DNA of 64,000 bases, from contig NZ_FQYQ01000004.1 in assembly GCF_900141825.1 (NCBI RefSeq), positions 1 to 64,000 of the forward strand, in the 5' to 3' direction. The position numbers and the translations under genes were made by a program. The notes under the pieces are model-generated. The model was not told where the DNA came from. It saw nothing but the letters and a program-made list of their open reading frames with translations, and did no database searches. The stretch comes from Pseudobutyrivibrio xylanivorans DSM 14809 (GTDB lineage: Bacteria > Bacillota > Clostridia > Lachnospirales > Lachnospiraceae). Below are positions 21 through 38,798 of the stretch, piece by piece (within the stretch, counting starts at the first letter, position 1; every line of letters starts with the position of its first letter).

Positions 21-93
21 GGGATCTTAGCTCAGCTGGGAGAGCATCTGCCTTACAAGCAGGGGGTCACAGGTTCGAGCCCTGTAGGTCCCA
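21..93 (+). tRNA. tRNA-Val (anticodon TAC)
   Basis: The sequence folds as a cloverleaf with a 7-bp acceptor stem (GGGATCT with AGGTCCC), an anticodon loop CTTACAA and a T-arm containing GGTTCGAGCC. The 3' CCA is not encoded. It is the first of four closely spaced tRNAs that probably come from one transcript. Confidence 0.95.
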
Positions 94-122
94 TTCAATT
101 GAATATAGTTAGTTAATAATAT

Positions 123-204
123 GGGCGGTTTCCCGAGTGGCCAAAGGGGACAGACTGTAAATCTGCTGCAAATTGCTTCGGTGGTTCGAATCCACCACCG
201 CCCA
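123..204 (+). tRNA. tRNA-Tyr (anticodon GTA)
   Basis: The acceptor stem is GGGCGGT with ACCGCCC and the anticodon loop is CTGTAAA. A long variable arm between the anticodon and T arms marks a type II tRNA. With GTA this fits bacterial tRNA-Tyr. CCA is not encoded. Confidence 0.95.
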
Positions 205-217
205 TCTTTTTTAATAT

Positions 218-291
218 CGCGGGATGGAGCAGTCTGGAAGCTCGCCGGGCTCATAACCCGGAGGTCGGTGGTTCAAATCCATCTCCCGCAA
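218..291 (+). tRNA. initiator tRNA-fMet (anticodon CAT)
   Basis: The anticodon loop is CTCATAA on a stem ending in three consecutive G:C pairs (CCGGG with CCCGG). The first acceptor base is an unpaired C opposite A. Both are hallmarks of bacterial initiator tRNA rather than elongator Met or Ile tRNA. Confidence 0.93.
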
Positions 292-297
292 CTACGT

Positions 298-370
<73 letters not shown>

Positions 371-34700: not shown

Positions 34701-36887
34701 ATGAAGAAAGTACTTAAGAAAATAAAAGCCGGGTTTAGTTGGCTTGGAAATAATATAAAGAAGCCTTTCATAAAGCTCGCAAATTCAAAGGCTGTTCAAG
34801 GCTATCTCAGCTCTAAGTTCCATAGAACATGGATGATGCTTTGGGATAAATATTCATTTTGGATGCACATTCCACTTTCGCTAATAATAATATTCCTTAT
34901 GGAGTGGATGTCCCGTCATTCGTTTACAGCTGCATGCACATTCGTTTCAGACCATACAGGTCCTTACCTATTTAATTCTTATTGTGTATTTGTAGCATTA
35001 TCTATAGTATTTCTTAGCAAGAGAAGAGGCTGGTGGCGAGTATTTATCAGTATGATATTTATAATTCTTGGAATTATAAACTGTGTCATTCTGTTGAATC
35101 GAGTATCACCATTTGGATATACAGATTTATATATGATTAGCGACCTGCTTACTATGCAGGATTCTAATTACTTCTCACCTCAGCAGGCTATGCTGGCCAT
35201 CATTGCATTGATTGTCTACATTATACTAATGATTATCTATGCAGCGCGTGGTCCTAAGAAGCAGGATGGAAAGCCATTCTGGCAGAGATTGATACTTGTT
35301 GTTGCTTTATTCGTATCACTTTATCCATCCACTATCCTTCTTAGAAATTCCGGAATCATGACATCATACTTCGGAAACCTTGCACAGGGATACCTTGATT
35401 ACGGTTATTTATACGGTTTTTCTACTTCAGTTTTAGACAGAGGTATGAATAGACCCTTCGGATATTCAGAAGCTAAAATCGACACTATTCTGGAGAACGA
35501 TGGAGCATACATCCAGACACTCCAGACAGCAGATGGAACAAGACCTAATATAGTAGTAATCCTCTTGGAGTCATTCTATGATGTATCAGAATGCAAGTTC
35601 CTTGAGACAAGCGAGGATCCAATCCCATTTATTCACTCATTGGAGCAGAACTACTCTACTGGACACTGTATCGTGCCTGTAGTTGGTGCTGGTACATGTA
35701 ACTCAGAGTTCGAAGTTCTTACAGGCCTCAGCTGTAACTTCTTTGGACCAGGTGAGTACCCACAGAAGACTATCCTTAAGGAAGTAGATGTAGAAAGTTA
35801 TGCCGATGTTCTTAATGAGATTGGTTACACTTCTCATGTAGTTCACAACAATGGTGGTAATTTCTATTCTAGAAAGAACGCATTCTCCCAAATGGGATTT
35901 GATACCTTCACATCGAAGGAACTTTTAGATATCACAGAGTACACACCACTCGGCAACTGGCCTACAGATGATATTCTTCTTCAGGCTACACTTGATGCTA
36001 TGGATACTACAGAGGGTAGTGATTTCATTTACACTATCACAGTAGAGGGACATGGCTCTTATCCAGAGTACGAGGTGGAGAAGGACCCTGAAATCAAGGT
36101 TAAAGCCAATGGAAAGACAGAAGGACAGAATTATGCTTGGGAATACTATGTAAACCGTATTCACAACGTAGATGACTTTATTAAGCAGTACATCCAGGCC
36201 TTTGATGAGCGTGGTGAGGACACCATCGTAATCATGTTTGGTGACCACCTTCCAACAATGGGTCTTACAAATGACGAAGTAAAAACTGGTGATTTATACA
36301 AGACAAAATATTTCACATGGAATAACTTTGGAATGGAAAAGAATGATATGGATCTTACTTCATATCAGCTTGTATCAGAGTATTTAAACAGACTTGGTAT
36401 CCACAACGGAAATATCAATGGATATCACCAGACAGCAATGGCTGCAGGTAAGAAATACGGCACAGGCGAGTACATGAATGACCTTAGAATGCTTCAGTAT
36501 GACATCATGTACGGTGACCGCTATACATATAAGGCCGGTAAAGAATACAAGGCTTCTGACATCATTATGGGTGTTAACGAGGTAAACGTAGACAGAGCTT
36601 ATTTCTTCAATGGAAGGCTTCATATCTACGGTGATGAATTTACTAAATGGTCTAAAGTATTCGTAAATGATGAGCAGGTATCTACAAAGTATGAGTCTGG
36701 TCAGGTTATTACGATAAATGCCAAAGATGTTAAGAATGGCGATAAAATTAAAGTGTGCCAGGTAGGTAGTTCAAATACAATCTTCCGTGAATCCAACGAG
36801 TACGTGGTCTACGATCCACACTACGTAGAGGAGACTGAGGAAGAGGCAATTGAAGATGGAGAAGCCGAAGCTGATTCAGCTGACTAA
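34701..36887 (+). CDS. LTA synthase family protein (sulfatase-type phosphoglycerol transferase)
   Basis: This 728-residue membrane enzyme has five or so N-terminal transmembrane helices (about 50-230) and an extracellular sulfatase-fold domain (about 280-600). The catalytic Thr lies in GAGTCNSEF (Thr332), as in lipoteichoic acid synthases, and the metal-site FGDHLPT motif is near 513-519. It should transfer glycerol-phosphate from phosphatidylglycerol to a growing polymer or other acceptor. The region after about 610 forms a small beta domain and ends with a strongly acidic tail. ATG follows CGGAGG by 6 nt. The gene ends at a terminator that is itself part of the large inverted repeat downstream. 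Confidence 0.9.
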   Translation: MKKVLKKIKAGFSWLGNNIKKPFIKLANSKAVQGYLSSKFHRTWMMLWDKYSFWMHIPLSLIIIFLMEWMSRHSFTAACTFVSDHTGPYLFNSYCVFVALSIVFLSKRRGWWRVFISMIFIILGIINCVILLNRVSPFGYTDLYMISDLLTMQDSNYFSPQQAMLAIIALIVYIILMIIYAARGPKKQDGKPFWQRLILVVALFVSLYPSTILLRNSGIMTSYFGNLAQGYLDYGYLYGFSTSVLDRGMNRPFGYSEAKIDTILENDGAYIQTLQTADGTRPNIVVILLESFYDVSECKFLETSEDPIPFIHSLEQNYSTGHCIVPVVGAGTCNSEFEVLTGLSCNFFGPGEYPQKTILKEVDVESYADVLNEIGYTSHVVHNNGGNFYSRKNAFSQMGFDTFTSKELLDITEYTPLGNWPTDDILLQATLDAMDTTEGSDFIYTITVEGHGSYPEYEVEKDPEIKVKANGKTEGQNYAWEYYVNRIHNVDDFIKQYIQAFDERGEDTIVIMFGDHLPTMGLTNDEVKTGDLYKTKYFTWNNFGMEKNDMDLTSYQLVSEYLNRLGIHNGNINGYHQTAMAAGKKYGTGEYMNDLRMLQYDIMYGDRYTYKAGKEYKASDIIMGVNEVNVDRAYFFNGRLHIYGDEFTKWSKVFVNDEQVSTKYESGQVITINAKDVKNGDKIKVCQVGSSNTIFRESNEYVVYDPHYVEETEEEAIEDGEAEADSAD

Positions 36888-36891
36888 GCCC

Positions 36892-36920
36892 AGAGCCCCT
36901 TTTCAAGGGGCTCTTTTTTA
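36892..36920 (+). terminator. Terminator of the LTA synthase gene
   Basis: AGAGCCCC and GGGGCTCT form an 8-bp stem with a 7-nt loop followed by TTTTTT, immediately after the stop codon. Confidence 0.93.
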
Positions 36921-37582
36921 ATGCCGCCCAGTACAGACCTAGCCCACAGGCCCTTTCAAAATTCACATATCCTGCCCTCTCAAGCTGGGCCTACTGCCAC
37001 ACTGCACATATACAATCCCATAATACTGATTTTCTAAAATACTGCGTGTCGCTTTCTTATTGATATGTGTCTTTTCAATTCTTTGCACTCCTATCAAGAA
37101 TGTGTGTCATAGATGGACAATAATAAACTAGAATTTCTTCTTACACTCAAACCCAGTAATAATTGCAATGAATATAGTGAGACTCTAGTAGAGCAAAAAT
37201 GATGTTTGGATTAGCATAGGCACGCTGAGCCATGGACGGCGAAGCGAGCCTGATAGTGAAACGGACTGAACTTGAAGGCGGTGCCTATGCTAACCAAACT
37301 CATTTTGTAGCTCTACTTAGGCGAACGATGTTGATATTGCAATTATACTGGGATTTGAGTGTAAGGAAGAATTGAGAGATAAGAATGTCCATCTCTGACA
37401 CAGCATTCTCTTCGAAGTGCAAAACCAATGAAAAGACACATATAAAAGCTCCACATGCAGTATTAAGAAAATCTAGTATTCTGCTCAAATGTATATGTGC
37501 AGTGTGGCAGCAGGCTCAGCTTGGGGCAGGCATAATAAAGGAGTGAGAGGGCCTGTGGGCAAGAGAACAAGAAGAGGGCATT

Positions 37583-37611
37583 AAAAAAGAGACTCCACAT
37601 TGTGGAGCCTC
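37583..37611 (-). terminator. Terminator of the prs operon
   Basis: On the minus strand GAGGCTCCACA pairs with TGTGGAGTCTC (one G:T pair) and is followed by six T residues. It occupies the same place in the right arm as the LTA synthase terminator does in the left arm, with a different stem sequence. Confidence 0.9.
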
Positions 37612-37619
37612 TGGGCTTT

Positions 37620-38798
37620 TTAGTATTCGCCGTTTTTGTAGCGTGTGATGAGCTTTTCGATACGTCCGTATGGGTTGAGGAGCTCTGAGATTGAGCACTC
37701 GTGATTAAGAGTATCGATGATGTAAGCGATGTACTTAGACATATCACACTTGATGAAGTAGTCTTTGCTCTGAACTTCTTCTGGAAGGTAAGTGAGGTTT
37801 GTAGTAACAACTCTGTAGATGATGCCCTTTTCTACGGCTTCATCGAACTTAGCCATACCATTTGTGAAGAGTCCGAATGTGGCTACTACGAAGATACGCT
37901 TAGCATTACGCTTCTTAAGCTCTGTAGCTACATCTATCATTGACTCGCCTGAAGAAATCATATCATCAACGATGATAACGTCCTTACCGGCAACGTCATT
38001 TCCAAGGAATTCATGAGCGACGATAGGATTACGTCCATCAACGATGCGGCTGTAATCACGACGCTTGTAGAACATACCAACATTTACACCTAAAACAGAT
38101 GCCATGTAAACGGCACGCTTTGTACCACCTTCATCTGGCGAGATAATCATAAGATTATCATTATCAAGCTTTAAGTCCTTGCAGTTCTTAAAGATGCCCT
38201 TAAGGAACTGGTAAGTAGGTGATACTGTCTCAAAGCTGTGAAGTGGAATCGCATTCTGAACACGTGGGTCGTGAGCATCAAATGTGATGATGTTATCAAC
38301 ACCCATGTTAACGAGTTCCTGAAGTGCCATAGCACAATCAAGGGATTCACGAGCACTTCTACGGTGCTGACGTCCTTCATAAAGGAATGGGATAATTACA
38401 GTAATGCGTTTTGCTTTTCCCATAGCTGCTGCGATGATACGCTTTAAGTCACAGAAGATATCATCTGGACTCATGTGGTTCTCATGGCCACAAACAGTGT
38501 AAGTAAGACTGTAATTTGTAACATCAACAAGGATGTATAAATCGAGTCCACGAACAGACTGCTTAATAATACCCTTTGCTTCGCCTGAACCGAAACGTGG
38601 ACAATCAGCATCAACAATGTAGGAATCACTACGGTAACCTGCTAGGGTGATGATAGACTGGTCGCTCTTGCGCTCCTGTCTCCACTGAAGAAGGTAGTCA
38701 TTAACTCGCTCCGCGATGGCTGTACAGCTCTTGTGTGGAATTAATCCAAGCTCAGCCATAGGTGGTGTGTTTTCCAACACGATTTCATTATTTGGCAT
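37620..38798 (-). CDS. prs: Ribose-phosphate pyrophosphokinase (PRPP synthetase)
   Basis: This 392-residue cytoplasmic enzyme makes PRPP from ribose 5-phosphate and ATP, feeding purine, pyrimidine, His, Trp and NAD synthesis. The PRPP-binding loop is in IIVDDMISSGES and the catalytic flexible-loop KRRDYSR is upstream of it. A divalent metal site, FDAHDPRVQN, replaces the more usual DLHAAQIQG. At 392 residues it is about 75 longer than standard class I Prs, mainly through an N-terminal extension and insertions, a form I associate with Lachnospiraceae. The ATG has AAGGAG 8 nt upstream. It is the last gene of a dnaD-dnaC-prs operon, 26 bp after the loader gene, and linking it to replication genes is unusual. 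Confidence 0.92.
   Translation of the reverse strand: MPNNEIVLENTPPMAELGLIPHKSCTAIAERVNDYLLQWRQERKSDQSIITLAGYRSDSYIVDADCPRFGSGEAKGIIKQSVRGLDLYILVDVTNYSLTYTVCGHENHMSPDDIFCDLKRIIAAAMGKAKRITVIIPFLYEGRQHRRSARESLDCAMALQELVNMGVDNIITFDAHDPRVQNAIPLHSFETVSPTYQFLKGIFKNCKDLKLDNDNLMIISPDEGGTKRAVYMASVLGVNVGMFYKRRDYSRIVDGRNPIVAHEFLGNDVAGKDVIIVDDMISSGESMIDVATELKKRNAKRIFVVATFGLFTNGMAKFDEAVEKGIIYRVVTTNLTYLPEEVQSKDYFIKCDMSKYIAYIIDTLNHECSISELLNPYGRIEKLITRYKNGEY

Follow-up and report, generated by a model that had tools for sequence, protein, structure and literature searches.

A 733-base palindrome between two convergent genes of Pseudobutyrivibrio xylanivorans is probably a resident copy of a fold-back mobile DNA element with the TwoAYGGAY motif at its tip

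Introduction

What fills the 733 bases between the stop codons of two convergent genes in the genome of Pseudobutyrivibrio xylanivorans DSM 14809, and how does a palindrome of this size persist there? The locus lies at positions 36886-37618 of the stretch of DNA analyzed in this work (the first 64,000 nucleotides of contig NZ_FQYQ01000004.1, forward strand; hereafter the window). It had been singled out in an initial annotation made from the sequence alone, which offered a fold-back mobile element, a large structured RNA, and a replication or chromosome-structure site as its guesses and found no feature type that would explain the repeat. We report here that the center of the repeat matches a described motif, TwoAYGGAY (Rfam RF01731), that the palindrome belongs to a multi-copy family of rumen bacteria whose ends commonly abut stop codons, that some species carry it at sites that others have empty, and that the two arms change together, the core having been flipped in place at one locus. 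In our view the window palindrome is probably one resident copy of a fold-back DNA element that is mobile, non-autonomous, and present in multiple copies; the mobile element is thus the best supported of the earlier guesses.

Results

The palindrome and its tip

Gapped alignment of the flanks (locus L003) reproduced the outline of the repeat exactly, with two arms of 338 bp around a spacer of 57 nt (Table 1). Identity between the arms, put at roughly 70-75% by eye, is 71% in the ungapped self-match (36911-37591) and 81% over the 322 aligned columns of the gapped alignment, the paired blocks being of 34 nt (94%), 37 nt (73%), 25 nt (84%), 20 nt (90%), and 15 nt (100%). When both strands were folded as RNA, one reached -375.3 kcal/mol, whereas its 20 shuffles gave -193.1 ± 7.5 (z = -24), and the opposite strand gave z = -28 (20 shuffles). 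An ungapped scan of the 64-kb window found this as the sole palindrome above threshold, and none was found in one first-order Markov control. The arms run to the stop codons of both flanking open reading frames (ORFs), and the terminators of both neighbors lie inside the arms at corresponding positions, as had been noticed; the additional claim that the terminators have different stems holds for their tips only, since stem base and tail are identical (AGAG..CTCTTTTTTAATGC).

The tip of the palindrome is a three-way, Y-shaped junction bearing two small hairpins, with loops AUGGAC and ACGGAC in the window copy, both of the AYGGAY type. It matches RF01731 over the full length of the model at 44.5 bits, a marginal score against the gathering cut-off of 43; five other copies in the same genome score 50-62 bits, and relatives reach 106.9. 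The center of the repeat therefore holds a recognized feature.

A family of large palindromes

A search for RF01731 was made in 61 genomes (G000 being the genome of the window, with the window on contig C40), of which 29 belong to the genus. The genome search returned three copies in G000 and later scans six, so that all copy numbers given here are lower bounds. Matches were found in 29 of the 61 genomes, among them 27 of the 29 Pseudobutyrivibrio genomes with 1-38 listed in each; outside the genus, G032 has at least 20 and G036 at least seven. The copies in G000 number at least six (matches on C10, C28, and C40, and further ones on C43, C10, and C19), and the arms of the window copy match other loci both in its own genome and in relatives.

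In 95 copies with usable flanks the palindrome spans a median of 648 bp (range 234-1105), and 500 bp or more in 77. Six of the seven copies fetched from G032 span 234-304 bp, and the seventh (L081) is without a meaningful palindrome. In G036 two TwoAYGGAY matches of opposite orientation (L077 and L079) lie a few hundred bases apart within one larger palindrome. Outward of the tip follows a constant stem of about 230 bp per arm, the end of which lies 226-243 bp from the center on each side, except in one arm of L100 that carries an insert; this boundary was located by a fixed pattern, which uses the asymmetric letters of the arms, in 32 of 79 copies, the window copy not being one of them. Beyond it, by inspection, lies a stem of about 45-55 bp, named V, which differs between copies and pairs within each copy; then come about 12 bp of mismatched sequence and a short paired end. 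In many copies this end is a terminal inverted motif, GTTRCYATTCACRG, near-matches to which number 41 in G022 compared to 11 for the reversed-pattern control.

Gene context was read from long ORFs rather than from annotation, and four of 99 copies with short flanks were dropped. Of the remaining 95 copies, 32 lie between convergent, 56 between tandem, and seven between divergent genes, compared to 30, 263, and 30 of the 323 neighboring ORF pairs in the background, which was 400 kb of C10 from one genome. The element is thus enriched between convergent genes and rare between divergent ones. Of 120 palindrome ends that face a stop codon, 62 lie within 20 bp of it (median -1 bp), so that the stop-to-stop layout of the window copy, correctly described from the start, is common in the family; on start-facing sides the end falls within 20 bp in seven of 70 cases (median 72 bp).

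Filled and empty sites

The right neighbor of the window palindrome, prs, is present in all 29 genomes of the genus. The gap downstream of it holds a palindrome in six of them (G000, G002, G004, G012, G014, and G020); in 21 genomes the gap is of 33-211 bp and free of palindromes, and in the remaining two a contig end interrupts it. The left neighbor of the window adjoins prs in 17 of the 29 genomes, and of these only G000 and G014 have a palindrome while the other 15 have short palindrome-free gaps; the window copy therefore looks recent within its gene pair, which strengthens the case for a mobile element. In the palindrome-free G010, G009, G005, and G026 the left gene is 94-98% identical, and the gap in G010 measures 90 bp. 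The palindrome in G014 (L152) is 602 bp long and has a different tip without an RF01731 match, showing that other tip types exist. In G013 a TwoAYGGAY copy stands beside a relative of the left gene (L179, G013:C23:28800-32000), with prs about 5 kb away.

Eight comparisons of filled and empty sites were made, of which two were set aside (L109/L272, a core deletion, and L113/L274, a short element). Compared to the empty site L267 of G015, copy L107 of G025 has 751 bp added between flanks of 95 and 99.7% identity, with a 5-bp overlap; L108 has 736 bp added compared to the empty L269, with an 8-bp overlap. By reading, L107, L108, and L109 lie at the T-tail of a terminator. In the G006 orthologue L272 the core has been lost and the V hairpin kept, one V arm being truncated. 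Two hallmarks of miniature inverted-repeat transposable elements (MITEs), homologous copies at unrelated loci and empty orthologous sites, are present in the family. With orthologous sites occupied or vacant according to species, the palindrome behaves as a non-autonomous fold-back mobile element.

The arms change together

Mismatches between the arms were counted on the TwoAYGGAY strand in 79 copies; it should be noted that neither the copies nor the orthologue pairs are independent of each other. In the outer arms 141 mismatches are G-U and 142 A-C, and in the mid arms 174 and 245, respectively; for isolated mismatches the corresponding counts are 10 and 13 (outer) and 41 and 46 (mid). Selection on an RNA should favor G-U throughout, and the lack of any excess in the mid and outer arms means that the palindrome is not accounted for by base pairing within a single transcript; selection for RNA pairing was therefore rejected for these parts of the arms.

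Seven orthologue pairs were compared in addition (L153/L156, with only one flank matched, was excluded from the totals, and L170/L176 was kept though no more than one flank passed). There were 39 double changes from one pair to another and 80 single-arm changes; transversions, for which G-U offers no intermediate, make up 21 of the double changes and count against an RNA route. At 17 further sites both sides had changed without being paired in both copies, 13 of them in L169/L177, where segments of the arms are swapped. The arms evolve in concert. In L106/L174, where the flanks show 97% identity, nearly the whole of V has been replaced in both arms, and it is still paired. V is nearly unchanged in L095/L173, and likewise in L111/L176/L170, where the core is inverted. 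Opposite orientation of TwoAYGGAY was found in eight of the 15 orthologue pairs with both flanks aligned, at five of ten loci, of which L111 was the only one inspected closely enough to call a flip in place.

As to the source of a new V, in the four genomes searched neither the V of L106 nor that of L174 had a match outside its own two arms, apart from one 26-base hit (E 0.05). A donor copy was thus rejected, with the caution that contigs of G019 end at the elements. Derivation from the flanks was rejected as well, since the empty sites of L107, L108, L109 (L271), and L110 hold no match to V.

SbcCD and the tolerance of palindromes

SbcD, of the hairpin nuclease SbcCD, scores above the cut-off in three of the 29 genomes of the genus (G003, G016, and G020), with a long SbcC match adjoining each. 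SbcC was judged by its length and its place beside SbcD, no SbcC being above the cut-off in the 61 genomes and one in 14 controls. In G012 SbcD and SbcC are present as short separate frames (G012:C2:97336-101216), and the other 25 genomes have weak SbcD matches, mostly to residues 1-94. SbcD passes in five of six sister genera in the same taxonomic family that have no RF01731 matches. Outside the genus, G032, with its many copies, passes for SbcD but has a TAG inside the match, and G036 fails the cut-off. In Escherichia coli, SbcCD is lethal to a recA mutant that carries a 246-bp interrupted palindrome, and the same palindrome rearranges in the absence of SbcCD and RecA (PMC3315005). The lack of a full SbcD in most of the genus may make these palindromes tolerable, as far as an association can tell. 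The initial annotation had argued that persistence of a long palindrome calls for selection, recent origin, or tolerance, an apt remark given that the arms change together and that most of the genus is without a full SbcD. In G019, element flanks match near the ends of contigs C2, C21, C50, C85, and C88, and the palindromes thus appear to interrupt the assembly.

A nested insertion sequence

In G003 the terminal motif flanks a stretch of 1,710 bp with a gene for a DDE transposase (PF01609). As an autonomous parent of the family this stretch was rejected, since the transposase belongs to an insertion sequence (IS) with ends CAATGTCATTWAGWTAAG that sits inside the hairpin. An IS with similar ends lies inside the first TwoAYGGAY hairpin of L305 (G003:C1:1519800) and L307 (G003:C1:2137716), and relatives in G000, G002, G015, and G026 are found, by reading, within terminator-like hairpins; the duplications, also by reading, are of about 9-11 bp. 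From its motifs we take this PF01609 element to be a member of the IS4 family.

Features of the window

The features of the window copy are collected in Table 1. The halves of V were assigned by analogy to other copies, and the left outer block takes roughly the position that the terminal motif has in other copies. A cluster of four tRNA genes lies at the start of the window (21-370).

Some further palindromic or similarly bounded elements were observed. Small elements of about 192 bp with GTTRCTATTCACAG ends are present in G003 (L276 and L277) and G000 (L278, G000:C19:121469-121660), and one of 37 bp with GTTRCTATTCACAG ends in G000 (L279, G000:C52:6466-6502). Another gap between convergent ORFs, at G000:C10:205205-205812, is palindromic too; its inner sequence is dissimilar, and close to either end stands a terminator-like hairpin, the tail TTTTTTTCTTCATC being common to both. 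At G000:C10:397646-398130, also between convergent ORFs, inverted arms of 96 bp flank an ORF of 80 aa.

Table 1. Coordinates of the palindrome, its parts, and its neighbors in the window.
Feature	Position	Strand	Remarks
Left arm of palindrome, 338 bp	36886..37223	+	Gapped arm alignment, blocks
Center, 57 nt, with the two small hairpins of the Y-shaped tip	37224..37280	+	
Right arm of palindrome, 338 bp	37281..37618	+	Gapped arm alignment
TwoAYGGAY RNA match (RF01731, 44.5 bits)	37189..37313	+	Tip and inner stem
Terminator of left gene	36892..36914	+	Within left arm
Terminator of right gene	37588..37612	-	Within right arm
Outer stem block, left	36939..36958	+	Pairs with 37544-37563; putative position, by analogy
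Outer stem block, right	37544..37563	+	
Presumed copy-specific stem V, left half	36971..37014	+	Contains best-paired block 36981-37014; by analogy
Presumed copy-specific stem V, right half	37490..37531	+	By analogy
Right-arm segment common to other copies of the genome	37399..37491	+	88% to C28, 84% to C10
Left neighbor, 728 aa, Pfam Sulfatase domain	34701..36887	+	Stop codon at left end of palindrome; presumably lipoteichoic-acid-synthase-like
Right neighbor prs, 392 aa, ribose-phosphate pyrophosphokinase domains	37620..38798	-	Stop codon at right end of palindrome

Discussion

From comparison of genomes, the family appears to be a large, fold-back, MITE-like element with concerted arms, and the following course of events would account for its properties. 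Copies would insert into the intergenic DNA that follows a gene, and at three or more sites would have done so at the T-tail of a terminator. Once resident, the arms would recombine by crossover, as suggested by the core flipped in place, and would copy each other by conversion or by template switching within the hairpin. Such copying would keep the arms alike and renew V in both arms simultaneously. The palindrome may also spread outward over the neighboring terminators until it is halted by coding sequence, which would result in the stop-codon-to-stop-codon layout. That most of the genus is without SbcCD would probably render the palindrome tolerable. Judging from the sequences compared, we favor arm-to-arm copying and recombination at the level of DNA as that which keeps the arms alike. 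The more specific proposal that the 45-55 bp segment has been repeatedly overwritten in both arms by DNA copying within the hairpin, and not by selection on RNA or from a donor, is put forward tentatively, and we would not be surprised to see it fail.

A number of observations weigh against this interpretation, in whole or in part. No mobilizing transposase was found, the sole transposase between such ends being that of the nested IS. An overlap or target duplication is present in only two of the six clean comparisons of filled and empty sites and in none of the other four. The palindromes that follow prs in G012, G020, G004, and G002 have other left neighbors, which may reflect a hot spot or an older history. 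The terminal motif GTTRCYATTCACRG is absent from the window copy, and its near-matches are not commoner than those of the control in G000 (18 and 15), G025 (11 and 12), or G003 (16 and 18). The asymmetries of the constant stem are retained in the 32 copies in which it was located, so that copying between arms cannot be uniform, and outward spread is inferred from the terminator bases common to both arms rather than seen happening. Within 110 bp of the center, G-U mismatches outnumber A-C (207 and 163 in the 79 copies), which weakens the case slightly, and there is a mild lean in the same direction among the single-arm changes that break pairing (G-U 27, A-C 17, others 29). Additional covarying pairs that lengthen the TwoAYGGAY helix have been reported and were read by their authors as RNA (PMC7657543). 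With regard to tolerance, the three genomes with SbcCD carry eight to ten copies, G010 and G026 are without a full SbcD and have no RF01731 match, and 12 of 24 order-level relatives have neither RF01731 matches nor SbcD above the cut-off; loss of SbcCD as a strict requirement was rejected on these grounds.

The alternative that survives best, which we still hold to be improbable, is that selection acts on the arms in the form of a DNA hairpin, such as a single-strand recombination or replication site recognized by its shape, in which V would drift while its pairing is kept. This would agree with the lack of strand bias among the mid- and outer-arm mismatches, with the conserved architecture around a variable paired segment, and with an IS that targets the loops of such hairpins. 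It would, however, require a large number of paired double mutations to build up in V with 97% of the flanks left unchanged, and no cognate recombinase turned up, no search having been aimed at one.

A long rod-shaped functional RNA, such as a CsrA-binding small RNA or a 3'-untranslated-region structure, whose palindrome is kept by selection for RNA pairing, is again unlikely, and a little more so. The argument for it centers on the tip. Binding of CsrA has been proposed for the TwoAYGGAY loops (PMC4333381), GGA is present in the selected loop (loop 1) of 98 of 99 copies, as found by a script anchored on NGAYG, and in the nine stem pairs of the first tip hairpin the 99 copies have 28 G-U and no A-C. 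These last counts are weak evidence for the tip acting as RNA, given that 26 of the 28 G-U stand at two loop-closing pairs of related copies; the near-tip lean and the published covariation mentioned above point in the same direction. By reading, loop 2 carries CGA instead of GGA in many other copies. A CsrA gene is found in 28 of the 29 genomes with RF01731 matches and in 23 of the 32 without; although commoner with the element, it occurs in most genomes that lack it, and co-occurrence is a doubtful sign of a link. The earlier guess of a large structured RNA may thus hold mainly for the tip and is not supported for the arms taken as a whole, which lack the expected tolerance of G-U and in which transversions make up more than half of the double changes. 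Furthermore, the element lies in sense to the genes in 23 and in antisense in 33 of the tandem contexts, its orientation flips between orthologues, and no promoter-like site was found in the palindrome region where 1.6 were expected. In the table of its discoverers the motif is marked as not cis-regulatory and not a riboswitch, though probably RNA (PMC2864571).

Nested insertion, in which pre-existing hairpins such as terminators or small repeats take up elements in their loops and the flanking palindrome is the old stem of the target, has an analogue in the IS described above, which does so in terminators and in two TwoAYGGAY tips, and the 37-bp and ~192-bp small elements share GTTACTATTCACAG ends. 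We regard it as very unlikely, since V has no match in the four empty sites searched for it, the sister genome G010 has 90 bp without V at the site of the window copy, and the sole core-less V hairpin (L272), with its truncated arm, appears to have arisen by loss of the core. Chance, or a single local inverted duplication without further meaning, which might be suggested by this being the sole palindrome of the window, is refuted by the copies in the same genome, the matches in 29 of 61 genomes, and the folding z-score of -24, and can be dismissed.

A mobile fold-back element of this kind can be compared to several known systems. With MITEs and fold-back elements it shares multiple copies, inverted ends, filled and empty sites, and the overlaps of 5 and 8 bp at two sites; it differs in being nearly all inverted repeat over 600-800 bp, in its concerted arms, and in an outer paired segment that is specific to each copy. 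REP sequences and REPINs, which go with RAYT transposases, are likewise multi-copy extragenic palindromes and have been described as mobile (PMC2817692, PMC3116915), but REPs are of 20-40 bp (PMC3733652), a size which does not fit the element. The duplications of the nested IS fit the length of one helix turn given for the IS4 family (PMC2266710), and the IS differs from the element in being a parasite that targets these hairpins, not their mover. Compared to the E. coli palindrome, those described here occur naturally, measure 600-800 bp, and persist in numerous copies, for the most part where a full SbcD is lacking. As regards Rfam, the tip of the window palindrome matches the RF01731 model, but the model comprises 168 positions, is typed Cis-reg, and is listed with function unknown, whereas in this genus RF01731 usually forms the tip of a mobile DNA palindrome of 600-800 bp that lies in either orientation to the genes. 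Among the titles and abstract beginnings of the open-licence literature none was found that links TwoAYGGAY to DNA palindromes or describes such elements in Pseudobutyrivibrio.

The orphan family TwoAYGGAY thereby gains a physical context, as the tip of large mobile DNA palindromes in this genus, and searches for its function should treat the motif as part of a mobile element. The elements also represent natural, replicated palindromes of 600-800 bp in many genomes, few of them with and most without a full SbcD, and since arm-to-arm copying, inversion, and loss can be traced between close species, the survival of palindromes in bacteria becomes testable by comparative sequencing. The findings further suggest that in short-read assemblies of these bacteria contigs end where the elements lie. 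If the rewriting of the palindrome by itself is true, each copy would hold a private, renewed paired stretch and would grow over the terminators of its neighbors, enabled by the loss of SbcCD.

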